A stretch of DNA of 64,000 nucleotides. Origin: Lathyrus oleraceus. Its lineage: Eukaryota; Streptophyta; Magnoliopsida; Fabales; Fabaceae. The notes under the pieces were generated by a model, which was not told the DNA's origin, did no database searches, and was given only the letters and a program-made list of their open reading frames with translations. The position numbers and the translations under genes are program-made. Numbering within the stretch: the stretch's first letter is position 1; each line of letters begins with the position of its first letter. Location of the stretch: contig NC_066582.1 of the NCBI RefSeq assembly GCF_024323335.1, forward strand, positions 184,730,973 to 184,794,972, in the 5' to 3' direction. Positions 5,465 through 51,027 of the stretch are shown here, piece after piece.

Positions 5465-5469
5465 AGTAA
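5465..5469. repeat. Target site duplication AGTAA, left copy
   Basis: AGTAA directly precedes the 5' LTR and is repeated at 13951-13955 directly after the 3' LTR. A 5-bp duplication is normal for Ty3/gypsy integration and shows that the element is complete at both ends. Confidence 0.95.
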
Positions 5470-7441: not shown

Positions 7442-7445
7442 TTAG

Positions 7446-7457
7446 TGGTATCAGAGC
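7446..7457 (+). other. Primer binding site, initiator-Met tRNA type
   Basis: TGGTATCAGAGC lies four bases after the 5' LTR. This is the standard plant Ty3/gypsy and copia primer site complementary to the 3' end of initiator methionine tRNA. Confidence 0.95.
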
Positions 7458-7565
7458 ATAGTCGGTCGAGTCGAGTCGTAATTATTCTGTTTCCCTGTAT
7501 GTGATAGGTGTTGTGTAACCCTATCAGTACTTATTGTTTTAGCTTGTTGGGTTCTCAGAATAGAG

Positions 7566-8246
7566 ATGGCTGGAAGAGGTAGAGACGATGCTGCGATTGC
7601 TGAGGCTCTGGGTATGCTAGCTGGAGTACTTGGAGGGAATCCGAATGTTGTGGGATTGGGAGCTGCTCGTCAATTGAGTGAGTTCCAGAAGAACAATCCT
7701 CCAATGTTCAAGGGAGCATACAATCCAGATGGTGCTCAGAAGTGGTTGAAGGAGATCGAGAGGATCTTCCGAGTGACTGAGTGTGCCGATAACCAGAAGG
7801 TCAGGTTCGGTACGCATATGCTGTCAGAGGAAGCAGATGATTGGTGGGTTGCTGCCCGCACTGAGTTGGAAGCTGCTGGGAGTGCTGAGATCACTTGGGC
7901 GGTGTTCAGAGAGAGATTCCTGAGGAAGTACTTTCCAGAGGATGTCAGAGGAAAGAAAGAGATAGAGTTCTTAGAATTGAAGCAGGGCAACCGGTATGTT
8001 ACTGAGTATGCTGCTAAGTTCACAGAGCTGTCGAAGTATTACACTCCCTATGATGAGGCTACTGGGGAATTTTCAAAATGTGTGAAGTTTGAGAACGGGT
8101 TACGTCCCGAGATCAAGCAGGCTATTGGGTATCAGCGGATTAGAGTGTTTTCTGACTTGGTTGACTGTTGCAGGATTTTTGAACAGGATACCAAGGCCAG
8201 AGCGGAGAGCTATCAGCAGAGGGTTGATAGGAAAGGCAAGAATTAG
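7566..8246 (+). CDS. gag: Gag of the Tekay-like element
   Basis: This 226-residue ORF starts MAGRGRDDAA about 110 bp after the primer site. It carries the plant retrotransposon gag (capsid-like) domain at about residues 40-190, with the typical W..F...F...YFP pattern (FRERFLRKYFP). Gag forms the cytoplasmic particle that packages element RNA. The ORF ends at TAG 8244-8246, but the same frame stays open into the zinc knuckles and pol from 8247. The stop therefore separates capsid from nucleocapsid. It may be a point mutation or a site of regulated readthrough. In related elements gag and pol are normally one ORF. Confidence 0.9.
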   Translation: MAGRGRDDAAIAEALGMLAGVLGGNPNVVGLGAARQLSEFQKNNPPMFKGAYNPDGAQKWLKEIERIFRVTECADNQKVRFGTHMLSEEADDWWVAARTELEAAGSAEITWAVFRERFLRKYFPEDVRGKKEIEFLELKQGNRYVTEYAAKFTELSKYYTPYDEATGEFSKCVKFENGLRPEIKQAIGYQRIRVFSDLVDCCRIFEQDTKARAESYQQRVDRKGKN

Positions 8247-8300
8247 AATGATCGTGGGAAGCCGTATGCAGCTGGCAAAGGTTTCCAGAGACAGAGTGGG

Positions 8301-11300
8301 ATGAAGAGACCTAGTGGGGGAGACTCCAGTGCCCCTGCTAAGTGTTACAGATGTGGTCAGGCTGGACATCGTATCCATGAGTGTACCAGTACAGAGAAGA
8401 AGTGTTTCAAGTGTGGCAAAGGTGGTCACTTGGCTGCAGAGTGCCGGTTGAAGACTATGACTTGTTTCAACTGTGGAGAGGTGGGTCATATCAGTCCACA
8501 GTGTCCTAAGCCGAAGAAAGAGAACCAGTCGGGAGGCAAGGTCTTTGCTTTATCGGGTTCTGAGACTTCTGCAGATGATCATTTGATCCGAGGTACGTGT
8601 TATATTAATGGCTTTCCTCTTGTAGCTATTATTGACACAGGTGCGACTCATTCCTTTGTATCTTTGGATTGTGCTGTGAAACTTAAATTAGAGATATCTG
8701 AGATGCATGGGAGTATGGTAATTGATACTCCTGCGAAGGGTTCAGTGACTACTACTTCAGTTTGTTTAAATTGCCCTTTGAGTATTTTTGGTAGAGACTT
8801 TGGGATGGACCTCGTGTGTCTTCCACTAGTGCATATTGATGTTATCCTGGGTATGAACTGGTTGGTGTTTAACCGAGTTTATATCAACTGTTTTGATAAG
8901 ACTGTGATCTTTCCTGAGATTGAGGAAGGAAAGAGTTTGTTTCTATCAGCAAGGCAGGTGAATGAGGCAGTAGCAGATGGGGCAGAGTTGTTTATGCTGT
9001 TAGCGACTTTGGAGGCTAAAGATAAACTGGTGATTTGCGATCTAGCCGTGGTGTGTGATTTTCCTGATGTGTTTCTTGAAGAAGTGAATGAATTACCGCC
9101 AGAGCGTGAAGTTGAGTTCTCGATTGATTTGGTACCTGGTACTAGGCCGATATCGATGGCTCCGTACCGTATGTCTGCTGTTGAGTTAACTGAATTGAAG
9201 AGTCAGCTGGAAGATCTGTTGGATAAGAAATTTATTCGTCCGAGTGTGTCACCGTGGGGCGCACCAGTGTTATTGGTTAAGAAGAAAGAAGGTACTATGA
9301 GGTTGTGTGTGGACTACAGGCAACTGAATAAAGTGACGATCAAGAATCGGTATCATTTGCCGAGGATTGATGATTTGATGGATCAGTTGGTTGGTGCGAG
9401 TGCGTTCAGCAAAATAGATTTGAGATCGGGGTATCATCAGATACGTGTGAAAACTGAGGATATTCAGAAGACTGCTTTCAGAACAAGGTATGGACATTAT
9501 GAGTATTCTGTAATGCCTTTTGGTGTGACTAATGCGCCTGGGGTATTTATGGAGTATATGAATAGGATTTTCCATCCGTACCTAGACAAGTTTGTTGTGG
9601 TGTTTATTGACGATATTTTGGTGTATTCGAAATCTGAAGAAGAGCATGCTGAACATTTGAGAGTGGTTTTAGGAGTTCTACGAGAAAAGAAGTTATTTGC
9701 TAAACTGTCCAAGTGTGAATTTTGGTTAGAAGAGGTTAGTTTTCTTGGTCATGTGGTTTCAAGAGGTGGTGTTGCTGTTGATCCTTCTAAGATAGAAGCG
9801 GTATCTAAGTGGGAAGCTCCGAAGTCAGTTTCTGAGATAAGGAGTTTTCTTGGACTTGCAGGTTATTATAGGAAATTCATTGAGGGATTTTCTAAGTTGG
9901 CGTTACCGTTGACGATGTGGACTAGAAAGGGGCAAGCGTTTGTTTGGGACTCAAAATGTGAAGAAGGTTTCCAAGAGTTAAAGAGAAGGTTAACTATATC
10001 TCCTATTCTGATATTACCAAGTCCGTCGGAACCATTTGAGGTTTACTGTGATGCTTCATTGTTGGGTTTAGGTGGTGTTTTGATGCAGAATAAGCAGGTT
10101 GTAGCTTATGCTTCGAGACAACTGAAGGTTCATGAGAGGAACTATCCGACACACGATTTAGAGTTGGCAGCTGTGGTATTTGTTCTGAAGTTATGGAGGC
10201 ATTACTTGTACGGGTCAAGATTTGAGGTTTTCAGTGACCATAAAAGTTTAAAGTATTTGTTTGATCAGAAAGAGCTGAATATGAGACAGAGGAGATGGTT
10301 AGAGTTTCTGAAGGATTACGACTTTGGTTTGAATTACCATCCGGGTAAAGCAAACGTAGTGGCCGATGCATTGAGTCGGAAATCATTGCATGTGTCCATG
10401 TTAATGGTTAAGGAATTGGATTTAATTGAGCAGTTTAGAGACTTGAGTTTGGTGTGTGAGAGTACTCACAATAGTGTTAAATTGGGAATGTTGAAGTTAA
10501 CGAGTGGTATTCTGGATGAGATTAGAGAGGGTCAGAAATCCGATGTGCTTTTGGTTGATAAGTTGACTCTAGCGAATCAAGGTCAAGGTGGTGAATTCAG
10601 AGTCGATGAGAATGGTGTTTTGAAATTTGGTAATCGGGTGTGTATTCCGGATGTTACCGAACTTAAGAAGAGTATTCTTGAGGAAGGACATCGTAGTGGC
10701 ATGAGTATTCATCCTGGGGCTACGAAGATGTATCATGATTTGAAAAAGTTATTTTGGTGGCCGGGAATGAAAAGAGAAATTGTGAGTTTTGTTTATTCTT
10801 GTTTGACTTGTCAGAAGTCAAAGATTGAGCATCAGAAGCCGTCTGGGCTAATGCAACCGTTGGATATTCCAGAGTGGAAGTGGGATAGTATCAGTATGGA
10901 TTTTGTTTCTGGTTTACTGAGGACAATTAAGAATTTTGAAGCTATTTGGGTGATTGTTGACAGATTGACAAAATCGGCTCATTTCATTCCGATCAAAATG
11001 GATTATCCGTTAGAGAGATTAGTTGAGTTGTATATTGAGAAAATTGTAAGTTTGCATGGTATTCCGTCGAGTATTGTTTCGGACAGAGATCCTAGATTTA
11101 CATCGAAGTTCTGGGAAGGTTTGCAGAGAGCTTCGGGAACTAAGCTGAGATTGAGTTCTGCATATCATCCACAGACTGATGGGCAGACTGAGAGGACGAT
11201 TCAGTCACTGGAGGATCTTTTGAGGGCTTGTGTTTTGGAAAAGGGAGGTGCTTGGGATTGTTATTTACCTTTGATTGAGTTTACCTACAACAATAGTTTT

Positions 11301-11936
11301 CATTCGAGCATTGGTATGGCACCGTTTGAAGCTTTGTATGGTAGGAGATGTCGGACACCTTTATGTTGGTATGAGTCCGGTGAGAGTGCTGTGGTTGGAC
11401 CGGAGATTGTTCAACAAACTACGGAAAAGATTAAGATGATTCAGGAGAAGATGAGGATTGCTCAGAGTCGTCAGAAGAGTTATCACGACAAGAGGAGGAA
11501 GTCACTTGAGTTTCAAGAGGGAGATTATGTGTTTCTTCGTGTTACTCCGATGACTGGGGTTGGTCGAGCTTTGAAGTCGAAGAAGTTGACACCTCGATTT
11601 ATTGGTCCTTATCAGATTTTGGAGAGGATAGGGGAGGTAGCCTATCGTATCGCTTTACCGCCGTCACTTTCGAATTTGCATGAGGTTTTTCATGTGTCTC
11701 AGTTGAGGAGGTACATTCCTGATCCGTCGCATGTGGTCCAAGTAGATGATGTACAGGTGAGAGATAACCTGACTGTTGAAACATCACCTATGAGGATCGA
11801 GGATCGAGAGTTGAAGCAGTTGTGGGGTAAAGAGATTGCCTTGGTAAAGGTAGCTTGGGGAGGACCAGCAGGTGGCAATGTGACTTGGGAACTTGAGAGT
11901 CAGATGAAGGAGTCTTATCCAGAGTTATTCGCTTGA
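8301..11936 (+). CDS. pol: Pol polyprotein: NC-PR-RT-RH-IN-chromodomain
   Basis: This 1211-residue ORF is in the same frame as gag, open from 8247, with its first ATG at 8301. Rough residues: three CX2CX4HX4C zinc knuckles at 15-28, 35-48 and 55-68; protease motif DTGA at 112-115; reverse transcriptase with FIDDIL near 436-441; Ty3-type RNase H starting YCDAS near 580; integrase HHCC zinc finger around 796-840, followed by the catalytic core; a C-terminal chromodomain-like segment from about 1155 to the end. That chromodomain places it in the chromoviruses, closest to the Tekay/Del clade, and is thought to steer integration to heterochromatin. No internal stop or frameshift is seen, so it may encode active enzymes. 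Confidence 0.93.
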
Positions 11937-11965
11937 GGTATGTTTTCGAGGACGAAAACTCTTTT

Positions 11966-11978
11966 AGTGGGGGAGAGT
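11966..11978 (+). other. Polypurine tract of the Tekay-like element
   Basis: AGTGGGGGAGAGT lies immediately before the 3' LTR and is the expected primer for plus-strand DNA synthesis. Confidence 0.88.
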
Positions 11979-13950
11979 TGTAACACCCCGATAAAATATG
12001 ATAATTATTTAATTTAAGTTTAATAGTATATTATGATGATAATATGAATGAGAGGGTATTATTTTTCAAAATAAAAGATAAACCATTCATATATATTATT
12101 ATTAGTATATTTATTAATTTAATTAAATAATTGGAATATTATTGGATTATTATTATAGGAATAATAAAGTTGGAATTGGAACGATTTTTGGAATCAGTGA
12201 AGAGTCCCATTTAGTAAAAAGGTTTTTCCACGTGAAAAGAGAGAAGCGACTAAAAAGTGGAAAAAGGGCAAAAAGGAAGAGCAAGAGAAAAAGGGTTGAA
12301 GAAGGGAAAAGCTTGAAGTTAAAGGATTTGCCGGATTAACTCAGGTAAGGGGGGTTTATCGTCGTTTAATGGGTATTATGGGTTAACATGTAATGGGTAG
12401 TAATAAGCCATTGATTGACTCTAATTAGGTTTTGAGAAATACCCTTGAATTGTGATGAATAAATTACGTTAAAACTGTGAACGAACCTATATTTGGATGA
12501 GTCGTAATTTCCTGGAAGTGTAGCTTTTTACGGAATCGAAATCGGAGGTCCGGAAGTCCTCCAACGGCGAAAAATGCGGGTAATTCTGCATTCTGTTCGT
12601 TGTTAGCGCAGGAACAGCTTTCTGTCTTGCGTTAACCGGTTAACCCAGGGCGTTAACCGGTTAACACTGTTATGATAATTAAAATAATTAAATTTTGTCT
12701 TGCGTTAACCGGTTAACCCAGGGTGTTAACCGGTTAACACTGTTAAAAATTGCCAAGAAGCGCATTCTGTTTTGCGTTAACCGATTAACCCAGGGCGTTA
12801 ACCGGTTAACACTGTTTGAAAGTGAAAAATTGATATTTAAATATTGTGTACGTTTTGGAATGGAATTATGTATACATATTGTATGGGCAGAAGTTTGATT
12901 TTTCTGAGCTGTTGTGGTGCAGTTTTGGTCGTTTCAGCTGAGTGATGTAATTTAGCTGATGTATGATATAGTAGGGATCATTTCCCGTTGTTTTGAGCAG
13001 TATAGGTATTAGTAGAGTGTGCTAATACTGTGATTTATTATTTGGCATGACATGATATGATTATGTGATAAATATGCTGATGATGTATGATGGTATGCAT
13101 AATGCGGTGAATATATCTATTATGTATGCAATTGTGGATGGACTGTTTATGGCTTAGAGTGTGAGCATATGTCCATTGTGGATTGTTGTTGATGTTTGCA
13201 TGCTAGGTGATTTAGCGTGCATAGCATAGCCTTTATGGTGGTAGCTAATTCCCATGGTGAGGAATTAGTGAGTGAGTCACTAGGTCTCAAATGAGTGGGA
13301 CTAGTGAGCTTGGTAGCCGTATCTGGGTTTGATCGGTGAGGTTGAACTATGTGTTCACGAATAGTCGGTACCGCATCCATGGAGTCTCATTTCATAATGT
13401 ATGTATGGCGTATAATATGAATGGATGTATTCCAATATTATACGTGTGTTTTGTGTTTGTGTTGAGTATGATTATGAGTTGGTGTTGCCGTTGCTGAATG
13501 TGTGATATGATTAGGGTGATGAATGTGTTAATTTACTTAACATTACATGATATTTTATAATGCTTATTATATCGATTGAGGAACTCACCCTTACAACTAT
13601 GTTTCAGGTAACGAGCAGTGATTGAGTAGAAGCTAGTGCTTGGAGTCTAGTGTAGTTCCTTAGTGGGTCATGCTCTGGTATATGTAACATCGGGACGGGA
13701 TGTTTTACCTTGTTTTCATTTTTGGTTGTTGAACAATATTACCTGTAATGTGTTACATGGTTTGCATGTTGTTAGATTTCTATCCGCTGCGAATTGTGCA
13801 ATGTTTTATTTTGATTAATAAATGAGCATGACAAGTTATTTTGGTGAATGGTGTGAAGTGTCAAGTGTGACACCCTGAAATTGCATATCTACTCTGATTT
13901 ATATTTTGTTGTTTTAATTAATTATTGGGGTATTTTAGAAGGGTGTTACA
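11979..13950 (+). repeat. 3' LTR of the Tekay-like element
   Basis: It matches the 5' LTR over its full 1972 bp with about 13 substitutions by eye and no indel noticed. Palindrome copies lie at 12631-12810. It ends GGGTGTTACA. Confidence 0.95.
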
Positions 13951-15561: not shown

Positions 15562-15923
15562 TGTAGCACCTCAAAATTTGCCCTCCTCATTCATGCATTC
15601 ATTTTAGGTCATTTAACACTTCATATTGCATCTCATCATGTCAATCAAAATTAGCTCCCAGAGGATATCATCCAAGTCAATTGGTTTCATTTTCAGAGGT
15701 TTTCTTCAAAAGATCAAGCTTAACAGACTCAGTACAATTCAAAATTCACCTGTGAAATCGAAAGTCAACTGTTGGTCAACTGAAGGTCAAATGGCTAGGG
15801 AATAACTTGAGTTACTTCCAACATGTTCAAATGAGGCATATTCATCATTTTACATATTACTCTTGAAGGAACAAAGGTCCAGCGCACAGGTTACAAATTT
15901 GGAAAGATGACTTGAACTGTCAT

Positions 15924-16015
15924 GCTCGCTAGGCGAGCAGAATGGTTCGCCTAGCGAGCCACCAAAGTCTGAACTGTCATGCTCGCTGGGCGAGCAGATC
16001 CTTCGCTAGGCGAAG
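15924..16015. promoter_or_regulatory. Palindrome cluster GCTCGCTAGGCGAGC in LTR A
   Basis: Near-perfect palindromes lie at 15924-15938 (GCTCGCTAGGCGAGC), around 15945-15959 (reverse version), 15981-15995 (GCTCGCTGGGCGAGC) and 16001-16015 (CTTCGCTAGGCGAAG). Stem bases change together between copies: GCTCGC/GCGAGC becomes CTTCGC/GCGAAG. A second cluster at 16522-16584 includes GCGAAGCTTCGC. Equivalent clusters occur at 32496-32590 and in both solo LTRs of the family. Confidence 0.65.
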
Positions 16016-18024
16016 CCCACGCGTTTTGAAAATAAAAAATATAACAGAAAAATTTTGGGCTTGAGTTGCCTTCATTCTGAGCCCACCAAGCCACCAAAAT
16101 CAGAGTATAAATTCTAAAATTTCATTGAAACAAAACCCTAGAGAGACTCTAACTAATTCAGAACAGCCTCCAGAGACTGAAGGGATCACCTCTACCAATT
16201 CCATCTCATATAAACCCTAAGATTATTCTGCAAACCCAACGGTGCAATTCAATTTCACTCGATCTCTCCAATCAGGTTTGCCTTATTCCCATTACTTTAC
16301 ACTTTTAATTTGAAATTCCTAAAGCATGAGGTATTATGGTTGAATCCGGGAGAGTGGGTATAGTTAGGTTTCACATGTGGGTTTAGATATGCATGAATGT
16401 GTAAAACAATGCCTTTAATGTTTGACCACTTAATTTATGAAATGGGTACCACGGGGTTTGGGGTTTCTGAAATCGTACTGTTATCAGAGAAGAACCCAGA
16501 ACCCGTAGGCATTCACTAGCCCATCGCTAGGCGAGCCTGCAGCGAAGCTTCGCTAAGCCTTCGCTAGGCGAAGGAGTAGCGATCGCGACAGTAGCTGCTT
16601 TTTTTGTTTGCTCTCCAATCTGTTTTGTGTTCGCTATGACATGCTTTCTATTACGTCCGGGCACATGTTTTGGTATGTATGTCATGTATTGATGTGTGGA
16701 TCCTTGCCCCCTGATTTTGAGTTTTGATACCCTTTTGATGCATTTGTTTGACAAGAGGTTTAGGCCTCTCACCCTTCGTTGCTTTTTGTGTGTTTTTTTA
16801 TGAACTTTAATGGCATGATTCATGCGGTTACATTCTTATTTGGTGCAACCTTTGATTGCACTCCATCTTGTTTTTTCTAACCTGTTTGTTGAGTTTTTGT
16901 GAGGGCTCACATGACTCTTGAAGAGATAGCTTGCTTGGTATTCCACTTTATTTGTGGGATACCATTTGGAGATTTATTCTGATTGCTTTGCTGACTTGCT
17001 TTCTTTGATGGTGTTAGCTTGAGAGATCTCTGGGTTTCTTATTTATTTAGTTGCTGTTACTTCGGATCTTTATCCGTGTGGTAGATCTCTTGACCCCTTT
17101 TACATCTTTTCAGCATTTTACTGCTTTCTTAGCCGGAAGACCTCGATAGGAGGCAATGTTTTTATGTGTTTACTTTTGTGCCCAAAGACCTCCAAGAAGA
17201 CGCACCAGTGCTAAAGCCCTCCATGAAGAGGCAATTGACGGATAAAAGGGATTAGTAGTCAATCCCCCGTTATTCAGTGTGTCGTTCTTTATGCTCACAC
17301 TACATGTCGATGCTTCAGAACAAAAGCCCAAGATCTTTTGTCCGGTCAGTCAGTGGAGAGAGTTCCATCTTCCTGAATCCCCACTTTTTGTCATGAGCTC
17401 ACCCTGTCCAGGGTTAAGAGCTATGAGGTCTTATCCTCATTAACCTTTTGATCTGCTCACCCTGACGTTCAGTCTCAGCGGTTAAGAGCCCGTTTAGTTA
17501 CCCTTCCATGGCTTGTTTGTCGAGGTTGATATGACCCCTCTTGACTAAAGCCCTACCCAGGTATGTTGAGCCCCCTTGTTGGCGTGTTTACTTTATGCAT
17601 GTTCGTTTTGTATGGTGAGCTCGTCTCCCCATAGGATTGCTAGGCTTCGTATAGTCTCTCGTGTGCATGTCAATTAAGGTAGCACGGTTCCTTCGTCAAG
17701 GACTTCCTTTTTGCATGAGCATTCCTAAAACACAAACAAATTCATTGATTTTTCTTTTCCTAAGAACACGTTAACTCCTTCTACCACAGGCGAGTAAGTC
17801 TCCAAAGGTCGAGCATCCGGTAGATTGCATAGTAATGTCGTTCATCTAAAAAACACAAACAAATAGGTCAGCCGAGCTACGAAGACTCTGATTCTCATAT
17901 TCATATGAGATACGTATGCAATGGATGCGACATCCGTACGAGTCATTTTCTTTTGACCCATCTTTTAGTAAATAGTACATTAGATAAACCCACACCCTTT
18001 AGATAAGAACAACAAGAGTGGATC

Positions 18025-22791: not shown

Positions 22792-23998
22792 ATGGAAAGC
22801 TTTCAAGCAGATCTAGCAGAAATGAGGACCAAACATGACCCAGTTCATGAGTATGATGCAAGGGGTAGTGCAAGGGCAAGAGGAACTCCGAGCCTTGGTT
22901 CAGAGACAAGAAATTGTGATTCCCCCTGTCGGTCAGAACCCGCCAGAAGGGACCCCTGTCGATGACGTTGCTGTTACCAACCCTGTCAACAACCATGCTA
23001 CTGGTGACGAAATGCGTGGTATTAGAATCAATGGACAACCCATCATTACAGAGGCTGCTAATGCTCGAGCGGCACGTGCTCGAGTTCACCATCCTTCTCA
23101 TTTGGTTGATAAGCAAGAAGATATGTTCACCATTCCCAGTGATGATGGTGAATTTGGAAAGGCGGAAGAGAGAGATAGAAAGGTCGACGCCCTTACTGAA
23201 AAGATTCGCGCCATGGAGTGCCAGAATTCTTTGGGCTTTGATGTTACTAATATGAGTTTAGTTGATGGGTTGAGGATCCCGTACAAGTTCAAAGCGCCAT
23301 CTCTCGACAAGTACAATGACACTTCTTGTCCCCGAACTCATGTGCAAGCTTACTACCAGAAGATATCCGCTTATACTGATGATGAAAAAATGTGGATGTA
23401 CTTTTTCCAAGACAGCTTGTCTGGAGCCTCTTTGGATTGGTACATGGACTTGAGAAAAGAATCTGCCAGAAGCTGGAGAGAGTTAGGTGAAGATTTTCTG
23501 AAGCAGTACAAGCATAACATGGACATGGCTCCGAGCAGAACCCAGTTGCAGAGTTTGTTTCAAAATACTGGTGAGAGCTTCAAGGAATATGCCCAAAGGT
23601 GGCGTGAACTAGCTGCGAGAGTACAACCTCCGATGTTGGAGAGAGAATTGACAGATATGTTCATTGGAACCCTGCAAGGTGTATTCATGGATCGTATGGG
23701 ATGTTTCCCGTTTGGTAGTTTTTCGGATGTTGTGATTTGTGGAGAAAGAACTGAAAGTCTTATCAAAGTGGGAAAAATCCAAGACCCTGGATCTTCAAGT
23801 TCTTCAAGTGCTAAGAAACCATTTTCAGGGGCACCCAGAAGGAGAGAAGGTGAGACAAATGATATACATAATCAGAGAAATGGAAACAGAGGACAACAAT
23901 ACCGTCAAGTTGCTGCTGTGACTATTCTAGCAACCCCAACTCAACAACAACAAAGAGGACAACCACAACAACAACAACAACAACAACGCCAATTCTAA
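22792..23998 (+). pseudogene. gag: Ogre gag, frameshifted near the N-terminus
   Basis: The likely start is ATG 22792 (MESFQADLAEM). The frame shifts by one base near 22834, and the rest continues in another frame from MTQFMSMMQG at 22835. The capsid-like gag domain covers roughly 23270-23740, with the SCPRTH, LWMY-like WMYFFQDSLSGAS and EYAQRWRE motifs, followed by a glutamine-rich tail (23935-23993). It ends at TAA 23996, where the frame otherwise continues into the protease part; a CAA-to-TAA change would explain it. The product would form the Ogre particle. It aligns well with the gag at 49780. Confidence 0.88.
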
Positions 23999-26372: not shown

Positions 26373-29300
26373 ATGAAACACCGTTCGTGTAGAATTGATC
26401 TTGCGGAATCCATTAAAAATAGTTATGTTATGGCTCAGTATGACTTCGATAATCCCATTTACCAAGCCGAAGAGGAGAGTGAAGAAGATTGTGAACTCCC
26501 CAAAGAATTGGCCAGACTATTGAAACCGAAGGAAAGGGTCATTCAACCTCATCAGGAAGAGTTGGAAGTCATTAACCTTGGTACTGAGGACGCAAAGAAA
26601 GAGATCAAGATAGGGGCTGCTTTAGAGGACAAGGTCAAGAGAGGGCTGATTGAAATGCTGCAACAATATGTGGATGTATTCGCATGGTCGTATCAAGATA
26701 TGCCTGGTTTGGATATAGATATTATGGTGCACAGGCTACCTCTCAGAGAAGATTGTCCTTCGGTAAAGCAGAAGCGTCGCAGAACTAGTCCTGATATGGC
26801 TGTCAAGATCAAAGAGGAGGTTCAGAAACAGTTGGATGCAGGTTTTCTAGCAGTTACCAATTATCCCCCTTGGGTGGCCAACATCGTACCCGTGCCGAAG
26901 AAGGATGGTAAAGTCAGGATGTGTGTCGATTACCGAGATTTAAACAGAGCCAGTCCAAAAGATGACTTCCCATTACCTCACATTGATGTATTGGTCGGTA
27001 ACACTGCTCAGTCCTCGGTTTTCCCTTTCATGGATGGATTTTCTGGCTATACCAGATCATGATGGCGCCAGAAGACATGGAGAAGACAACCTTCATAACC
27101 CCATGGGGCACCTTTTGCTACAAGGTGATGTTGTTTGGGTTGAAGAACGCCGGTGCTACCTACCAAAGAGCTATGACGACTCTTTTTCATGACATGATGC
27201 ACAAAGAAATTGAAGTATACGTGGATGATATGATTGCGAAGTCTCAGACAGAAGAGGAACACTTGGTAAACTTGCAAAAGTTGTTTGAAAGATTGAGAAA
27301 GTTTAAACTGAGGCTGAATCCAAACAAGTGTACGTTTGGAGTGAGATCTGGAAAGCTGTTAGGTTTCATTGTCAGTAGCGAAAGGGATTGAGGTTGATCC
27401 AGCGAAAGTAAAAGCTATCCAAGAAATGCCTGAACCAAGAACGGAAAAGCAGGTTCGTGGGTTTTTAGGGAGGCTGAACTACATTGCACGTTTCATATCT
27501 CACCTAACAGCTACGTGCGAATCGATATTTAAATTGCTAAGAAAAGATCAAGCAATCAGGTGGAACAATGATTGTCAAAAAGCTTTTGATAAGATAAAAG
27601 AATATTTGCAGAAACCTCCAATTCTTGTACCTCCAGTTCCTGGGAGGCCTCTGATAATGTACCTTTCAGTAACAGAGAATTCGATGGGGTGTGTATTGGG
27701 ACAGCATGACGAGTCTGGTCGAAAAGAGCATGCAATATACTACCTTAGCAAAAAGTTTACCGACTGTGAAACAAGATATTCGCTGCTTGAGAAAACTTGC
27801 TGTTATTTGGCATGGGCTGCTCGCCGACTAAGACAGTATATGTTGAACCATACTACTTTGTTGATTTCTAAGATGGACCTAGTAAAGTATATCTTTGAAA
27901 AGCCGGCTCTTACCGGACGAGTGGCTCGTTGGCAGATGATTTTGACAGAGTATGATATCTAGTACACGTTGCAAAAGGCCATCAAGGGTAGTATTCTGTC
28001 TGATTACCTTGCCGAGCAACCAATTGATGACTATCAGCCGATGATGTTTGAATTCCCCGATGAAGATATCATGTACTTAAAGATGAAAAATTGTGAAGAG
28101 CCTCTTGTCGAGGAAGGACCAGATCCCGATGACAAGTGGACACTGATGTTTGATGGGGCGGTAAATGTGAATGGAAATGGTGTTGGGGAAGTACTCATTA
28201 ATCCTAAAGGTGCACACATACCTTTTTCCGCCAGATTGACTTTTGAAGTAACCAATAACAAAGTTGAGTACAAGGCTTGTATCATGGGGATTGAGGAAGC
28301 CATCGATCTAAGGATCAAAACTATGGACATTTATGGGGATTCTGCTCTAGTGATTAACCAAGTCAATGAAGACTGGAATACTCATCAGCACCATTTGATT
28401 CCTTATAGAGATTACACCAGAAGGATCCTGACTTTCTTCAAGACAGTAAAGTTGTATCATGTATCCCGAGATGAAAATCAAATGGCTGATGCCTTAGCCA
28501 CATTGTCTTCCATGATTAAAGTTCATTGGCAGAATCATGTGTCACACGTTGCTGTGAATCGACTCGAGAGGCCTGCGTATGTGTTTGCAGCCGAGTCTGT
28601 TGTTGATGAGAAGCCGTGGTTTTATGATATTAAGAATTTCCTCAAAAGCCAAGAGTATCCTGAAGGAGCATTGAAGAATGACAAGAAGAAACTGAGAAGG
28701 CTAGCTCGAAGCTTTTACTTGAATAAGGATGATGTGTTGTACAAGAGGAACTTTGACATGGTTCTGCTCAGATGCGTGGTTAGACACGAAGCAGACATGT
28801 TAATGCAGGAAGTACACGAGGCATCTTGCGGTACCCATGTTGGTGGTCATGCAATGGCCAAGAAGTTGTTAAGAGCCGGTTATTACTGGATAACCATGGA
28901 ATATAATTGTTTCAAATACGCTCGGAAGTGCCACAAATGTCAGATCTATGCAGATAAAATGCATGTACCACCAAACCCTCGGAATGTTATGAATTCTCCT
29001 TGGCCATTCGCAATGTGGGGCATCGATATGATTGGAAAGATTGAACCTACTGCTTCTAATGGACATCGCTTCATCCTAGTCGCGATTGATTACTTTACCA
29101 AATGGGTGGAAGCAGCGTCCTATGCCAATGTTACCAGACAAGTGGTTGCTCGATTCATTAAGAAAGAAATTATCTGTCGTTATGGGGTCCCTGAGAGAAT
29201 CATCACTGAAAATGGTTCGAATCTCAATAACAAGATGATGAAAGAGCTTTGCAAAGACTTTAAGATCGAACACCACAATTCTTCTCCTTACAAACCAAAG

Positions 29301-29867
29301 ATGAATGGTGTTGTAGAGGCGGCGAACAAGAACATTAAGAAGATTGTGCAAAAGATGGTTGTGACGTACAAGGATTGGCATGAGATGTTGCCTTTCGCTT
29401 TGCATGGGTATCGCACCTCAGTGCGTACGTCAACCGGGGCAACTCCGTTTTCACTTGTGTATGGCATGGAGGCAGTCTTGCCAGTAGAAGTTGAAATCCC
29501 TTCTTTGAGGGTGATGATGGATGTAAAACTTGACGAGGCTGAGTGGGTTCAAGCCAGGTTTGATGAGTTAAATTTAATTGAGGAAAAGCGATTAGCAGCT
29601 GTGTGCCATGGACAACTATATCAAAGAAGGATGAAGAAGGCCTTTGATCAGAAAGTGCATCCTCGAAGCTATCAGATAGGTGACTTAGTTTTGAAGAGGA
29701 TCCTTCCTCCCACTACAGATAACAGGGGCAAGTGGACTCCGAATTATGAAGGTCCATATGTTGTTAAAAAGGTCTTTTCTGGTGGAGCCTTGATGCTTAC
29801 ATCTATGGATGGTGAAGATTTTCCGTCTCCTGTGAACTCAGATGTAGTAAAAAAATACTTCGCATAA
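26373..29867 (+). pseudogene. pol: Ogre pol: RT, RNase H, second RNase H, integrase
   Basis: The domains are in order but broken. RT runs from about 26780 (PPWVANIVPVPKKDGK) with the VYVDDM box near 27215. A one-base deletion near 27050 and a second shift near 27370 break the frame, and TAG 27960-27962 interrupts the end of the first RNase H. That RNase H is degenerate: its first catalytic Asp position reads YLSVTENS. A second, archaeal-type RNase H follows (DKWTLMFDGA near 28130, later YGDSALV and MADALA). Integrase has its HHCC finger near 28815-28940 and core near 29010-29330. The second core Asp reads TENG instead of the usual TDNG. Translation ends at 29867 (KKYFA). There is no chromodomain, as expected for the Tat lineage. 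Confidence 0.9.
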
Positions 29868-30012
29868 ACTGACCCGCTGGACAAAGAAAGAAAGTCCAGG
29901 CAAAAAAGGGCATCCCGGCGAACCAAAAAAAAAAAAAAGAAGGAAAAAAAGGGTTCGGGCAAAAGTTAGGGATAAGAATAAAAATAATATGTACACCCGA
30001 AAAGTCGAAAAC

Positions 30013-30070
30013 CTGCAAAGGCGGCTTAGGAAAAAATGGGTATCCCGATGGATTGAAAACCTGAAAAGGC
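30013..30070 (+). repeat. Two GNRA hairpins, 48 nt apart
   Basis: CCTGCAAAGG (30013-30022) and CCTGAAAAGG (30061-30070) each form a CCT/AGG stem with a GCAA or GAAA loop, preceded by GAAAA and followed by CGG. The minus-strand family-B element has CCCGAAAGGG twice with the same 48-nt spacing, so one stem pair differs in a compensated way. Confidence 0.6.
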
Positions 30071-31204
30071 GGTCCCGGCAAAAGAGGGATTAAAGCGAAG
30101 ACTACAGTCTGAGTTATCTGTACTTCATCGCGTTTCAGTGTCTACCATCTTGAAGGATATGATCGGTCCAATCACTCTTCTCAGAAAGCAAAGAATTTGG
30201 GGGAAAGTGAAGATCTATGAGTCATAACAAAATTGGAAAATAGTGGAATGTCGTGTTCACATTGCCAATAGGATAGTTTATTTTCTCTTTTGGCGCAATT
30301 ACCTCTTCCTAAGAATTGCTTCCTGATGTATTTGCCTTTATAGGCCATTTTCAATCAATAAAAGTCGTTATTCAGTCAAATTGCTCTCTTGTTTTTTTAA
30401 TTCTACTGTTTTGTTTGCAAAAAACGTCTGAATTTTTGATAAACATTGCATCTAAAAACATGAAGGCTAGACAATGGCGTGCGGAAAGATAAAACATCTG
30501 AAAATCATTTTGAATGTTGAGTACACTTGAGTATATTTTGTCCATACGATCCCCTGGGGCATGTATGTCTTGTCATTTTGCAGGTTACTATCTTTGATTG
30601 ATGGCTAAAGCAGATGAGCCAAAGTTTGTTCAAAGGAAGACCCTGTGGTTTCAACATTGTCTCGTCGTGTAAGAAGTTGGGTCGTCTAAGTCGAGTTCAG
30701 AATTTGTTCCCCCAGCATGGTCGAGAGGTTGGTGTTTTCCCAACAAGTGACTCCCCAGTTGAGTTGGTTTCTCTACCGTTCCGAGAATGTCAGACCAGTA
30801 AGTATCCTCATCAATGTCCCCACAAAGTTGGAAGATCGAATCAGAAATTGTATGCTCAGTAAAGTGATCATTTTGCTTTCCCAGCAGGAGTTTTCCTCCC
30901 TTTGCATCTTGCATGTAGTAACCATCATTTGCATTCGCATTCTCAAATCGCGTAGCATTTCCATTCAATATGGAGCATTACGCCATGAAAAAACTCAAAC
31001 ATATGCATACATACATGTATTAAACCAAATTGGAGCATATCCCCAGAAGAGACGAATCATTTTTCAACATCAGTGTAGCACATTTGCAGCAGTTGCACTT
31101 AGCAACATTTAGAATCGATAATCCTAGTGAGATTTATTTTCTCACCAGTCCGTGAAAGGAAAGCTTGATTCCCTTCCAATTTAGTCCCCGACAAGTGTCT
31201 GCCT

Positions 31205-32010
31205 TATTTTGACATATGTAAATATCATCCTTGTGATACCGGTAGGTGTCGTGTTGATCCTCACAAATGTCTGTGCTTTTCTTTGATGTCGACGAACATC
31301 ATCTTTCGATGTCGGTAAACGTCGAATTCCAATCGTTGACCATCAGTAAATGGCATGTCTCGCATGGTGTCTACAAAAATCGTTATGTCAACACCCATAA
31401 GTGTATTTCTTTCTTTGGTGTCGGTAAACATCATTGTTCGATGTCGGTAAACATCAGCCGCTTGTTAACCATCGGTAAATGGTTTTGTCGTTTAAGATTC
31501 CCTAGCAGATTCGCTATCCGTAAATATCGAGTATTTCATTGTCGCCATCAGTAAATGGTTTCGTTTCATAAATATATTCTTTTCTAGGTGTCTGTAAACA
31601 TCATTGTTCGATGTCGGTACACATCAAGTTCCTTCCCAGTCATTGGTAAATGTCTGGTCTTGTTTCACTTATAAACATCTTTCTTCGATGTCGGTAAACA
31701 TCGAGTTCCTTCCCAGTCATCGGTAAAGGTTAGGTCTCGTTTCACTTATAAAAATCTTTGTTCGATGTCGGTAAACATCGAGTTCCTCCCCAGTGAAGCC
31801 GCCATCGATAAATGGCCTCGCTTTCTTTGATATCGGTAAATATCAAAAATTGTTTTGAAGTCGCCATCGGTAAATGGCCTCGCTTTCTTTGATATCGGTA
31901 AATATCAATTTGTTTTGAAGCCGCCATCGGTAAATGGCCTCGCTTTCTTTGATATCGGTAAATATCAATTTATTTTGAAGCCACCATCGGTAAATGGCCT
32001 CGCTTTCTTT
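31205..32010 (+). repeat. Array of about twenty CGGTAA-loop hairpins
   Basis: The constant loop CGGTAA (sometimes CAGTAA, CCGTAA or TGGTAA) is flanked by complementary arms that differ from unit to unit. Examples are GATGT/ACATC (31440-31455), AACCAT/ATGGTT (31467-31484), GCCAT/ATGGC (31863-31878) and TTGATAT/ATATCAA (31889-31908). Units are spaced irregularly in the first half. From 31799 to about 32013 they are locked into a 60-bp tandem repeat holding one GCCAT and one GATAT hairpin. The pattern is seen directly; any RNA role is inferred. Confidence 0.85.
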
Positions 32011-32013
32011 GAT
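31799..32013 (+). repeat. 60-bp tandem repeat, about 3.6 copies
   Basis: Units start near 31799, 31861, 31921 and 31981 and share ATGGCCTCGCTTTCTTTGAT. Each full unit includes the GCCAT and GATAT hairpins. It looks like a recent local amplification inside the older hairpin array. Confidence 0.88.
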
Positions 32014-32120
32014 TCATTCCCTGTAGAGTGCAAATTCTCCGGTTATTTTGGTATTCAATCCCTATTTACCTTGAAAGTCTGATAGCCGCTGCTTTCATCC
32101 GTTCAGGTTCACAGTTGATT

Positions 32121-32133
32121 GAATAGGGGCAGC
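32121..32133 (+). other. Polypurine tract of the family-A Ogre
   Basis: GAATAGGGGCAGC lies directly before the 3' LTR. It is nearly identical to the tract of the minus-strand element at 3969. Confidence 0.9.
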
Positions 32134-34134
32134 TGTAGCACCTCAAAATTTGCCCTCCTCATTCATGCATTCATTTTAGGTCATTTAACACTTCATATTG
32201 CATCTCATCATGTCAATCAGAATTAGCTCCCAGAGGATATCATCCAAGTCAATTGGTTTCACTTTCAGAGGTTTTCTTCAAAAGATCAAGCTTAACAGGC
32301 TCAGTACAGTTCAAAATTCAACTGTGAAATCGAAAGTCAACTGTTGGTCAACTGAAGGTCAAATGGCTAGGGAATAACTTGAGTTACTTCCAACATGTTC
32401 AAATGAGGCCTATTCATCATTTTACATATTACTCTTGAAGGAACAAAGGTCCAGCGCACAGGTTACAAATTTGGAAAGATGACTTGAACTGTCATGCTCG
32501 CTAGGCGAGCAGAATGGTTCGCCTAGCGAGCCACCAAAGTCTGAACTGTCATGCTCGCTGGGCGAGCAGATCCTTCGCTAGGCAAAGCCCACGCGTTTTG
32601 AAAATGAAAAATATAACAGAAAAATTTTGGGCTTGAGTTGCCTTCATTCTAAGCCCACCAAGCCACGAAAATCAGAGTATAAATTCTAAAATTTCATTGA
32701 AACAAAACCCTAGAGAGATTCTAACTAATTCAGAGCAGCCTCCAGAGACTGAAGGGATCACCTCTACCAATTCCATCTCATATAAACCCTAAGATTGTTC
32801 TGCAAACCCAACGGTGCAATTCAATTTCACTCGATCTCTCCAATCAGGTTTGCCTTATTCCCATTACTTTACGCTTTTAATTTAAATTTCCTAAAGCATG
32901 AGGTATTATGGTTGAATCCGGGAGAGTGGGTATAGTTAGGTTTCACATGTGGGTTTAGATATGCATGAATGTGTAAAACAATGCCTTTAATGTTTGACCA
33001 CTTAATTTCTGAAATGGGTACGACGGGGTTTGGGGTTTCTGAAATCATACTGTTATCAGAGAAGAACCCAGAACCCACAGGCATTTGCTAGCCCATCGCT
33101 AGGCGAGCCTGCAGCGAAGCTTCGCTAAGCCTTCGTTAGGCGAAGCAGTAGCGATCGCGACAGTAGCTGCTTTTTTTCTTTGCTCTCCAATCTATTTTGT
33201 GTTTGCTATGGCATGCTTTCTATTACGTCCGGGCACATGTTTTGGTATGTATGTCATGTATTGATGTGTGGATCCTTGCCCCCTGATTTTGAGTTTTGAT
33301 ACCCTTTTCATGCAGTTGTTTGACAAGAGGTTTAGGCCTCTCACCCTTCGTTGCTTTTTGTGAGCTTTTTTATGAACTTTAATGGCATGATTCATGTGGT
33401 TACATTCTTATTTGGTGCAACTCTTGATGGCACCCCATCTTGTTTTTTCTAACCTATTTGTTGAGTTTTTGTGAGGGCTCACATGACTCTTGAAGAGATA
33501 GCTTGCTTGGTATTCCACTTTATTTGTGGGATACCATTTGGAGATTTATTCTGATTGCTTTGCTGACTTGCTTTCTTTGATGGTGCTAGCTTGAGAGATC
33601 TCTGGGTTTCTTATTTCTTTAGTTGCTATTACTTCGGATCTTTATCCGTGTGGTAGATCTCTTGACCCCTTTTACATCTTTTCAGCATTTTACTGCTTTC
33701 TTAGCTGGAAGACCTCGATAGGAGGCAATGTTTTTGTGTGTTTACTTTTGTGCCCAAAGACCTCCAAGAAGAGGCACCAGTGCTAAAGACCTCCATGAAG
33801 AGGCAATTGACGGATAAAAGGGATTACTAGTCAATCCCCCGTTATTCAGTGTGTCGTTCTTTATGCTTACACTACGTGTCGATGCTTCAGAACAAAAGCC
33901 CAAGATCTTTTGTCCGGTCAGTCAGTGGAGAGGGTTCCATCTTCCTGAATCCCCACTTTTTGTCATGAGCTCACCCTGTCTAAGGTTAAGAGCTATGAGG
34001 TCTTATCCTCATTAGCCTTTTGATCTGCTCACCCTGACGTTTAGTGTCAGCGGTTAAGAGCCTGTTTGGTTACCCTTCCATGGCTTGTTTGTCGAGGTTG
34101 ATATGACCCCTCTTGACTAAAGCCCTACCCAGGT
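32134..34134 (+). repeat. 3' LTR of the family-A Ogre, truncated
   Basis: It matches the first 2.0 kb of the 5' LTR (15562 on) with roughly 2% difference in the first kilobase. It stops after CCCTACCCAGGT, where the 5' LTR continues ATGTTGAGCC. The missing end includes the U5 hairpin and LTR terminus. The next base starts a minus-strand family-B LTR piece, so this is a rearrangement breakpoint. Confidence 0.9.
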
Positions 34135-48676: not shown

Positions 48677-49779
48677 CCGGTTTCCCTAAGCGAGTCCCTC
48701 CTAGCTTTTGTAGGTTGTTTGTTTATTGGGTGTTTATTCTTTTGTACAGTTATTTATCTTTCAGCATTTACCTGCTTTAATGCATTGTGTACATATGACA
48801 GCCGTATCTGCTGGTTCTGTTTGTGAGATGAGTTCTATACCTGGACTCGAGTGCAATTAAGATAGGAGAATGGCATAGTCTTGTTGACTTGTGTGAAGTT
48901 ATTCCTTAGCAAGTTGACTTGCAAGCCCATTCACTTGGTGGAGGTCATGTTGAGATCAATAATGTCACACAAGTAAATTGTGGTTAGACATTACTTTTTC
49001 CAATATAGACCTTAGAAGCCAAGGACCTTAGTTTACCAAACCCGTCTTGGCCTATTCGTAGGATGTAGTGCGAAAGTCGTTCAAGTGTAAGATTTGATAC
49101 GATTGTTACTCGATACTACACTCATAAGAGTCTCTCTTGAGAATATTTTTGGAATATGAGTAGTCGTTCCTCCGATAATATCTGAAAGATGGGATTATGA
49201 CTATGGGAACCTTTTTGTAGAACATGTTTGGCAGGTTTAAACCTTAGTACACTCCGTGTGGGTGGTTCTTAACCTAAACTCCATGCTCGTGACTTGCAAC
49301 AAACCCTTGATTCATGGTTGATCCGTTCAGGTATCCTTAATATCAATGAAACTTGGGTGTTGATAAGGTGTAAACCATAATCCACCAAAAATGGATGGTT
49401 GATATTAAGGATAACATGATCCATCCCATGACCTTTGTTTGGTGTGCTTTGCTTGATCCTCTTAATTTCTCTCCAGGCAGTGCAACCTGACAGATGTTCA
49501 AGCGGATCCAGCAATTCTGATTGACATGCCATTGCATTGCATAACATCATCTGCATATTTGCATCCAACATCTCATGCTTATTCATTTGCAGGGTATTCC
49601 CTTTTTTAAGGGGGGGCCTGAAAATCGAATAAGCAGTGCATCGCATACCATACATACTAACCCTCATTTGTTTTGCAGGTGTCACCGCAGTGTCTAATGT
49701 TTTTTCCCTGTTTCAGGCAGTTATTGGTCCCAAGCAAGTTCACAGGTACCCGACAAAGGAAAACCGTCCACGACTAGCA
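48677..49779 (+). other. Leader of the chimeric element, ORF1 absent
   Basis: 48817-49450 resembles the leader of the family-B Ogre at 61980-62590. 49480-49600 resembles the family-A leader just before ORF1. Then the sequence jumps to the region just before gag (GTTTTGCAGGTGTCACCGCAG). No ORF1 sequence is present. An open frame encoding HRYPTKENR precedes the gag ATG. Confidence 0.7.
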
Positions 49780-51027
49780 ATGGACCAGATACAGAAAGAA
49801 CTGGCTGATATGCGTGAAAGGATGGATCAGTTCATGACATTGATGACTGGTATGGCAGCAGGCCAAGAAAAGCTGAGGGAATTGGTTGAGCAACCGAGGC
49901 CCGATCCAGATTTGGAGATACCAAATTCTGAGGGAAACCCTGGGAACGCTGATAACCCTATGAACACTCGAAACGCGGGTAACGCAAATGTTGATGGAAA
50001 CCCGGGTAATGTTGTCAACACGGGAAATGTTGGGAATGGTATTGGCGGAAGGTACAATGTGAATCAAGGGATTCGGATTAACGGGCGCCCCGTTATTGAA
50101 GATTGTCAGTATGATCAATTTTCTTTGCACGACGAGGCCCTCGAGACCACTTGCCGTATGGATGAGCTTGCTGAGAAGCTCAAATCTTTGGAGTCTCAAA
50201 ATTCCTTAGGTTTTGATGTCACAAATCTTGGTCTGGTTCAGGGAGTAAGGATCCCTCACAAGTTCAAACCCCCTACTTTTGAGAAATACAACGGGGCTTC
50301 TTGCCCACGCACTCATCTCCAATCTTATTTGGGAAGGTTGGGAGCTCACACTGAAGATGAAAAGCTGTGGATGTACTATTTTGAAGATAGTCTAACTGGA
50401 GCTTCTCGTGAATGGTATTCTCATTTGTCTCGCACTACCATCAAGAGATGGAAAGACTTGGCAGAGGCTTTTATCAAGCAATATCAATACAACTTGGACA
50501 TGGCTCCAAATCGGACCTTGTTGCAAGGAATGTCTCAGACTGCCAAGGAAACCTTTGGAGAATATGCTCAGCGTTGGAGACAGATTGTTGCATCCGTCCA
50601 ACCCCCTATGTCTGAAAGGGAGATGGCAGACATGTTCATGAACACTCTTCAAGGCAATTATATCGAGAGATTGGCTGCTTGCCCGTCAATCAGCTTTGCA
50701 GAGATAGTGATTGCTGGAGAAAGGATCGAGAGTCTGTTGAAGATGGGCCGAATTCAAGACAACAGTGCTTCCAACTCATCAGTTCCCAAGAAACCGTTGG
50801 CTGGTAACGGTCAGCGAAGAAGGGAAGGTGAGACGAGCGTTGTATATGCCGGCAGAGGCAGGGGCAGAGGACGCCCTAATTATTATCAAGATCAAGTGGC
50901 TGCAGTCACTATTCCAACACCTGTTCCTCAACCACAGTCTCATCCGCAACAACAACCCAGGTACAACAATCAACAACAAGGAGGTAATCCGGGTCAACAG
51001 AGACACTATCAACAACGTCCAAGGTAG
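49780..51027 (+). pseudogene. gag: Ogre gag (chimeric element)
   Basis: The likely start is ATG 49780 (MDQIQKELADMRERM). The frame is open further upstream to 49636, but that part overlaps the leader. The N-terminus looks like a short coiled coil (about residues 1-40), followed by an Asn/Gly-rich stretch and then the gag domain near 50270-50730 (SCPRTHLQSY, WMYYFEDSLTGAS, EYAQRWRQ). Arg/Gly and Gln-rich tails follow. It ends at TAG 51025, after which the same frame stays open, so the stop is probably a mutation. It is closely related to the gag at 22792 and in better condition, with no frameshift seen. Confidence 0.87.

Follow-up and report, generated by a model that had tools for sequence, protein, structure and literature searches.

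Hairpin array with a near-constant loop in the 3′ UTR of an Ogre-type retrotransposon points to selection on sense-strand RNA

The 3′ untranslated region of an Ogre-type LTR retrotransposon in Lathyrus oleraceus carries an array of 21 short hairpins, in which one near-constant six-base loop sits on arms that differ from unit to unit. Comparison of this array with its relatives elsewhere in the genome points to selection on the sense-strand RNA, rather than to arm copying or a DNA cruciform, as the reason that the arms stay complementary. We consider it likely that the array serves the retrotransposon as a multivalent cis-acting RNA element, with hairpins that are probably bound by a protein reading the loop. 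Ogre elements make up much of large legume genomes, and the array offers a concrete motif for the study of binding, packaging and specificity in these elements.

Results

The array in the window

Coordinates refer to the window, the whole stretch of 64,000 nucleotides that was analysed. Between 31240 and 31993 its + strand holds 21 sites that are at most one base from CGGTAA, 13 of them exact, in line with the "about twenty units" of CGGTAA or one-base variants described in an initial sequence-only reading; exact CGGTAA is absent from the - strand of the array region. The features discussed below are as follows.

15562..17562, + strand: 5′ LTR, first 2 kb, pairs with 32134-34134
31232..32001, + strand: CGGTAA hairpin array, 3′ UTR, 21 units (range spanned by 20 covariance-model hits)
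31235..31250, + strand: hairpin 1, GATAC-CGGTAG-GTGTC, C-G closing pair, one T.G
31308..31323, + strand: hairpin 2, GATGT-CGGTAA-ACGTC, one T.G
31339..31354, + strand: hairpin 3, ACCAT-CAGTAA-ATGGC, 4 bp
31417..31432, + strand: hairpin 4, GGTGT-CGGTAA-ACATC, one G.T
31440..31455, + strand: hairpin 5, GATGT-CGGTAA-ACATC
31468..31483 (inner 5 pairs), + strand: hairpin 6, AACCAT-CGGTAA-ATGGTT, 6 bp
31513..31528, + strand: hairpin 7, GCTAT-CCGTAA-ATATC, one mismatch
31544..31559, + strand: hairpin 8, GCCAT-CAGTAA-ATGGT
31587..31602, + strand: hairpin 9, GGTGT-CTGTAA-ACATC, from the loop scan, missed by the covariance model at E 5
31610..31625, + strand: hairpin 10, GATGT-CGGTAC-ACATC
31639..31654, + strand: hairpin 11, GTCAT-TGGTAA-ATGTC, T.T mismatch at pair 4
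31687..31702 (inner 5 pairs), + strand: hairpin 12, TCGATGT-CGGTAA-ACATCGA, 7 bp
31716..31731, + strand: hairpin 13, GTCAT-CGGTAA-AGGTT, broken stem
31764..31779 (inner 5 pairs), + strand: hairpin 14, TCGATGT-CGGTAA-ACATCGA, 7 bp
31801..31816, + strand: hairpin 15, GCCAT-CGATAA-ATGGC
31829..31844 (inner 5 pairs), + strand: hairpin 16, TTTGATAT-CGGTAA-ATATCAAA, 8 bp
31863..31878, + strand: hairpin 17, GCCAT-CGGTAA-ATGGC
31891..31906 (inner 5 pairs), + strand: hairpin 18, TTGATAT-CGGTAA-ATATCAA, 7 bp
31923..31938, + strand: hairpin 19, GCCAT-CGGTAA-ATGGC
31951..31966 (inner 5 pairs), + strand: hairpin 20, TTGATAT-CGGTAA-ATATCAA, 7 bp
31983..31998, + strand: hairpin 21, ACCAT-CGGTAA-ATGGC, 4 bp
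31595..31794, + strand: 77-bp tandem array, 2.6 copies, hairpin-bearing
31794..32013, + strand: 60-bp tandem array, 3.6 copies, two hairpins per unit
32134..34134, + strand: 3′ LTR, first 2 kb, 97.15% identity to 15562-17562

All four arm pairs named in the sequence-only reading (GATGT/ACATC, GCCAT/ATGGC, GATAT/ATATC and AACCAT/ATGGTT) are present, and the 60-bp tandem amplification that it had placed at the end of the array is found there, together with the 77-bp array. Perfect arms of at least 4 bp flank 10 of the exact loops, against a mean of 0.002 and a maximum of 1 in 1000 dinucleotide shuffles of the array region, and 14 of the near-exact loops with the exact ones included (shuffle mean 0.021); the hairpins thus withstand the comparison with shuffled sequence that had been proposed as a check. 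Exact CGGTAA also occurs at 13 sites outside the array in the window, on both strands, with arms of only 0-3 bp. Within the array the perfect arm is as short as this at 7 of the 21 sites, measuring 1 bp at 31721 and 2-3 bp at 31240, 31313, 31422, 31518, 31592 and 31644, and four of the latter six reach 5-8 bp when G.T is counted. A covariance model built from other loci gave 22 hits in the window (E up to 5), of which 20 lie inside the array, each on the + strand; a search at E 1e-9 returned no hits, a cut-off too strict for a 22-base model. One weak hit at 4651-4680 (E 0.02), inside a 104-bp tandem array of 5.6 copies (4645-5223), is probably due to chance.

The host element

We read this part of the window as the pol-to-LTR section of an Ogre-type Ty3/gypsy element that is interrupted by nested insertions. 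The open reading frame at 27963..29867 (+) encodes an RVT_3 RNase H-like domain followed by an integrase (H2C2 zinc binding, rve core), and a domain scan placed a reverse transcriptase (RT, 27002-27388) and an RT_RNaseH domain (27363-27959) upstream of it. This is the Ty3/gypsy order of RT, RNase H and integrase with an additional RVT_3-type RNase H, and an extra RNase H is a mark of Tat elements. A gag frame lies further upstream, at 22835-23998. The polypurine tract occupies 32121-32129 (32121..32133, +, with its junction), and the 3′ LTR begins just after it with TGTAGCACCTC at 32134. Its match to the 5′ LTR gives the very long LTRs of Ogre/Tat elements (at least 2.0 kb at 97.15% identity), and tandem repeats between pol and the 3′ LTR, another Ogre/Tat character, run from 31595 to 32013. 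With the integrase frame ending at 29867 and the polypurine tract and LTR following the array, the placement in an Ogre 3′ UTR suggested from the sequence alone is confirmed. A zinc knuckle was sought in 3 + 8 scanned frames of the array-bearing element and none was found. The intron of Ogre/Tat elements lies between protease and RT. For GmOgre, passages of one report describe an ORF1 upstream of gag, and an intron (PMC3305785).

Loop and stems in related arrays

Counted as exact 16-mers in the 3.795-Gb genome, with the reversed sequence as control, GATGT-CGGTAA-ACATC has 22,466 copies (control 1) and GATAT-CGGTAA-ATATC has 15,600 (control 0). The two intermediates between them, altered on a single side of pair 2, are scarce by comparison, with 228 and 511 copies. 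Our sample of 61 loci comprised the window, 40 fetched regions covering 100 places among the matches listed for the first of these 16-mers (of 22,466), and 20 regions on a contig designated C2, drawn from 100 places among the matches listed for the form GATAT..ACATC (of 511). Every fetched locus was thereby ascertained by holding one unit, and the ascertaining form was removed from the C2 set in the stem census, the G.T/A.C site count, the C2 covariation test and the looser reading of private stems described below. Stems recur across these loci; GATAC/GTGTC of hairpin 1, for example, is present in 25 of the 61 sampled arrays.

In an unsupervised census of the first 41 loci the most frequent loop was CGGTAA (257 hairpins, 16 arms), and the next had 21 hairpins on 4 arms. 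The units have one orientation, with 659 sense and 1 antisense in the 41 loci and 0 antisense in the C2 set, and the 41 elements carry 9-44 of them each (median 24). Among 1272 hairpins from the 61 loci, chosen to have four or more of the five pairs Watson-Crick and no more than two loop changes from CGGTAA, the loop was CGGTAA in 939, CAGTAA in 100, CTGTAA in 56, CGATAA in 22, TGGTAA in 17 and CCGTAA in 10. Distinct contexts with a single loop change numbered 16, 68, 18, 3, 8 and 6 at positions 1-6. The loop is C-N-G-U-A-A, loosest at position 2 and almost invariant at positions 4-6. We set aside a reading of the loop as a splice donor or U1 decoy (GGUAA), because loop position 3, the invariant donor G, varies more than positions 4-6. 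Across 791 distinct unit contexts of the 41 loci, which were themselves chosen for three or more of the five pairs and a loop at most one change from CGGTAA, loop columns hold 1.20-1.94 bits and spacer columns 0.01-0.60 bits.

The stems follow the consensus G-N-Y-R-T / A-Y-R-N-C, with strong covariation that weakens at pair 5, and each of the four Watson-Crick pairs occurs at pair 4. For the first 41 loci, where 719 exact loops gave 197 distinct contexts, the Watson-Crick fractions observed and expected from the margins at pairs 1-6 were 0.95/0.85, 0.90/0.52, 0.80/0.47, 0.70/0.30, 0.76/0.64 and 0.57/0.25. A random draw of 148 of the 196 distinct 22-mers from the 40 fetched loci, chosen by loop only, had 78.2% paired cells against 60.5% when shuffled and a covariation score of 0.561 against 0.276, a value that none of 500 shuffles reached and that compares with 0.07-0.19 in slid registers; two of the five measures in this set (change on both sides, and further pair types) were not above shuffles. 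Kinship alone can exceed such shuffles, and the test was therefore repeated on the C2 set, with 284 sites in 73 distinct contexts from 20 loci on another contig. Here pairs 1-4 and 6 exceeded all 2000 shuffles, with Watson-Crick fractions of 0.904 against 0.475 at pair 2 and 0.671 against 0.355 at pair 4, and pair 5 was not above shuffles (0.712 against 0.661, maximum 0.767). Related copies thus keep complementarity rather than fixed arms, an outcome that leaves the sequence-only reading intact on this point.

A second loop word in sister copies

The exact junction of polypurine tract and LTR occurs 11,664 times in the genome. For 65 junctions below C1:22.35 Mb (among the matches listed), 31 have a GATGT..ACATC unit within 4 kb; against this, 34 have no such unit within that distance, and CGGTAA stems of other kinds lie near at least 7 of these. 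We fetched 1.25 kb at each of eight of the 34 (L228-L235). L228, L230, L232 and L235 each contain a tandem run of 6-11 units, in which the loop is CGATAA or TGGTAA and the stem is G.U-rich or mismatched and varies little. L228 also has, at 150-1000, tetraloop hairpins (CGTT, CGAT, CTAT) on CATC/GATG and CGTC/GACG stems, alternating with its CGATAA and TGGTAA units. The remaining four loci (L229, L231, L233 and L234) carry 11-42 hairpins with six-base loops ending in YCAG (NNYCAG) on several stems, with no CGGTAA hairpins in the 1.25 kb; YCAG hairpins also occur in L228 and L232.

Over the eight loci the YCAG stems comprise CGGT/ACCG, TGGC/GCCA, CGAC/GTCG, CGAT/ATCG, CAGT/ACTG, CGGC/GCCG and TGGT/ACCA, and a census found 100 hairpins with six-base loops ending in TCAG on 7 arms. 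Arms of at least 4 bp flank 119 of 203 YCAG sites on the sense strand and 1 of 55 on the antisense strand. Covariation over all 63 distinct YCAG contexts from the eight loci, background sites included, came close to the highest shuffle values at pairs 1-4 without reaching them and fell well short at pair 5, and for this second loop class the sense/antisense contrast and the census are stronger evidence than covariation. The pattern YGGYATTCAGRCCR has 107,238 genome matches, against 112 for its reversed control. Of 100 among the matches listed, 96 have a Watson-Crick pair and 4 a T.G at pair 1. At pair 4 the counts are 89 Watson-Crick, 8 C.A and 3 T.G, so that C.A is no rarer than T.G at this position.

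These loops bear on whether the RNA structure could be selected without any loop-binding protein, for instance by stabilising the 3′ end, pausing reverse transcriptase or spacing the polyadenylation signal. The structural tests above and the strand tests below would support any RNA role equally, and six single sense units fold into only modest hairpins (-4.2 to -9.6 kcal/mol). A purely structural role, however, needs no loop whose positions 4-6 hardly change (3, 8 and 6 contexts, against 68 at position 2) while the stems vary, and sister copies present a second, different constant loop. We therefore regard a role for structure alone as rather unlikely.

Wobble pairs and the selected strand

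Because G.T in the sense sequence corresponds to A.C on the opposite strand, a DNA cruciform or arm correction predicts equal numbers of the two. At pairs 3-5 we counted 673 G.T/T.G against 45 A.C/C.A, and at pairs 1-2, where both are rare, 26 against 30 (1396 sites, 61 loci); this tally counts sites rather than events, and related sites enter it many times. Genome-wide, the G.T form of pair 4 (GGTGT..ACATC) has 11,661 copies and its A.C form (GATGT..ACACC) has 160, each with a control of 0, and the Watson-Crick GGTGT..ACACC stem was found in 38 of the 61 sampled loci. In a 700-bp block flanking the array, compared over 31 loci and the window, 124 rare substitutions were of the kinds that would make G.T and 99 of the kinds that would make A.C. 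Three observations run against a sense-strand bias. Pair 2 departs from simple G.U tolerance genome-wide, with 228 copies of the G.T single change GATGT..ATATC (control 0), fewer than the 511 of the A.C single change GATAT..ACATC (control 3). In 128 distinct stems, private damage after insertion included, G.T numbers 44 and A.C 38. Folding in an energy model is more favourable for the antisense strand (z -8.33) than for the sense strand (z -2.27; 20 shuffles for each), because U.G can close the antisense loop, and folding energy by itself is no evidence of function.

Private stem changes

The 61 loci contain 145 distinct stems, of which 25 occur in at least five loci and 107 are private to one or two. 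The shared stems include 7 that are perfect, 9 that depart by G.T only, 2 with A.C and 7 with other mismatches. Each private stem was read from its nearest shared stem as parent, and 75 of the 107 lie one change away. These changes include 63 one-sided breaks of a Watson-Crick pair (20 to A.C, 15 to G.T and 28 to another mismatch), along with 7 from G.T to Watson-Crick, 4 from G.T to another mismatch and 1 that is still unpaired. Another 15 private stems are two changes away, none by a two-sided Watson-Crick replacement, so that none of the 90 stems within two changes of the nearest shared stem is compensated; 17 lie further off. Perfect private stems number 2, with 0 among the 17 far stems. 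On a looser reading, in which any shared stem may be the parent, 9 of the 107 are one two-sided Watson-Crick change away, and each of these 9 is also one single change from another shared stem. By the nearest-stem reading, private stem changes are best taken as uncompensated, and with 63 one-sided breaks and 0 of 90 compensated, dead copies therefore seem not to correct their arms.

Template-switch or quasi-palindrome correction is known to act on perfect arms that flank a short loop. In favour of such a DNA-level process, in which template switching or correction would keep the arms complementary or the DNA would extrude cruciforms, both pair 2 intermediates are rare, and the 9 stems of the looser reading could be taken as corrected. 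Correction is expected in dead copies too, however, where the nearest-stem reading finds breaks and no compensation, and a process that treats the strands alike does not predict ratios of 673:45 at pairs 3-5 and 11,661:160 at pair 4. We consider a DNA-level origin very improbable, and the copying process making inverted arms, one of two options in the sequence-only reading, fares poorly on both counts. The other option, selection on structure, gains support specifically for the sense-strand RNA, from the excess of G.T over A.C at the outer pairs, the 659:1 orientation and the private stems.

Units with alike spacers yield 11 unique stem pairs with a two-sided Watson-Crick change, out of 31 two-sided one-pair transitions, together with one-sided changes between Watson-Crick and G.T (82), A.C (59) or another mismatch (40). 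Neutral tandem duplication of one palindrome, with the different arms as separate ancient founders, would agree with the strong shared descent of the units, with stems that recur across loci and with the plain 60-bp tandem at the array tail. It does not account for the 11 two-sided transitions between units with alike spacers, nor for loop columns far above spacer columns in information (in units chosen by loop and pairing), and we give it scant credence. The equally faint prospect of hairpins in an antisense transcript or small-RNA precursor draws on the better antisense folding energy and is opposed by its tolerated wobble, which would appear in the sense sequence as A.C, and A.C is scarce at pairs 3-5. 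The simplest reading of the two kinds of change is compensation in spreading lineages and damage in copies sitting still, as expected if the RNA is the selected thing.

Discussion

A near-invariant loop, strict inner pairs with freer outer pairs, a single orientation, many copies and differing loop words in sister copies together fit multivalent sites for a loop-reading protein, and on these comparative grounds we favour such a role for the array. In the cell, most units of the sense transcript would fold into hairpins of 5-8 bp with a C-N-G-U-A-A loop, whose two inner pairs are strict and whose outer pairs may be any of several Watson-Crick pairs or G.U. A protein-binding hairpin would have just this layout, with a loop that the partner reads and a stem whose main requirement is to be double-stranded, and the 9-44 units of each element would give avidity. 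Selection would act on the genomic RNA in transposing lineages. The partner, less certainly, may be a loop-specific RNA-binding protein that most plausibly tags the genomic RNA for packaging into the particles of the element. Our first guess would be that the Gag of the element itself uses the hairpins for packaging or dimer selection, with a host protein acting in export or stability as the alternative, and sister copies with an NNYCAG loop at the same place would carry a different tag.

A broader and more tentative proposal, about which we are doubtful, is that each Ogre family labels its genomic RNA with hairpins by the dozen, all showing a family-specific loop word (CNGUAA, NNYCAG) that a cognate protein may read to select genomes. 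On this view the "hypervariable" minisatellites of the 3′ UTR, from which plant satellite DNA is seeded, would be a by-product of copying the loop code.

The array resembles the iron-responsive element (loop CAGUGN, Rfam family RF00037) in its six-base loop and variable stem, and CNGUAA has C1, G3 and U4 in common with it. It differs in the 3′ half of the loop and in belonging to a plant retrotransposon, in arrays of dozens. With a CNGTAA loop, and no such Rfam match at E up to 1 in 29860-32200, we rejected identity with that element; the same search gave one weak sub-threshold match, which lies outside the array. In viral contigs a 26-mer had 0 matches and no relative of the integrase was found, and 31 viral-contig stretches with one match each to the 16-mer were taken as chance. 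A nearer parallel in layout is STNV-1, where part of the published account describes stem-loops that share an AxxA loop as degenerate multi-copy candidates for packaging signals, and also in vivo data that weigh against their being true packaging signals (PMC6475782). Both cases have many short stem-loops with a common loop motif and variable stems in one RNA, as far as that portion of the account goes; the STNV-1 loops share only AxxA, whereas the Ogre loop is six bases long, its hairpins are clustered in an array and its stems covary.

Published passages on the 3′ UTRs of Ogre/Tat elements describe hypervariable tandem repeats (Macas 2009 as cited in PMC7004042), treated as minisatellites and satellite seeds (PMC7004042, PMC3305785), and the remark in the sequence-only reading that the array may be seeding a satellite fits the relevant passages of PMC7004042. 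Satellite DNA would form long arrays outside the element, and the 60-bp unit has 3.6 copies in the window. For the GmOgre minisatellites, the corresponding portion of PMC3305785 reports no similar sequences outside Glycine and calls possible functions "not known". Our array is alike in its place between coding region and 3′ LTR, its lineage, its interleaved short repeats and its variable copy number, and unlike in that those passages (PMC7004042, PMC3305785) present minisatellites and describe no hairpin, constant loop or covariation. The word "hairpin" is absent from the main text of PMC7004042, and in the open-access literature searched on Ogre 3′ UTR repeats we found no account of these hairpins. 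One such repeat region is thus a hairpin array with strong signs of selection on RNA structure, which offers a reason for the existence and expansion of Ogre 3′ UTR repeats.

Other elements in the window

A second gypsy element occupies 5461-13950, with an open frame of 1211 amino acids that encodes zinc knuckles, protease, RT, RNase H and integrase; the zinc knuckles lie in its ORF at 8301-11936. Its LTRs (5461-7441 and 11970-13950) are 99.19% identical. Each of them contains 72-bp tandem repeats that include the perfect palindrome GTTAACCGGTTAAC, with five in every LTR. A further gag frame at 49633-51027 comes from another element and matches the gag frame at 22835-23998 at 64.7% over 654 aligned bases.
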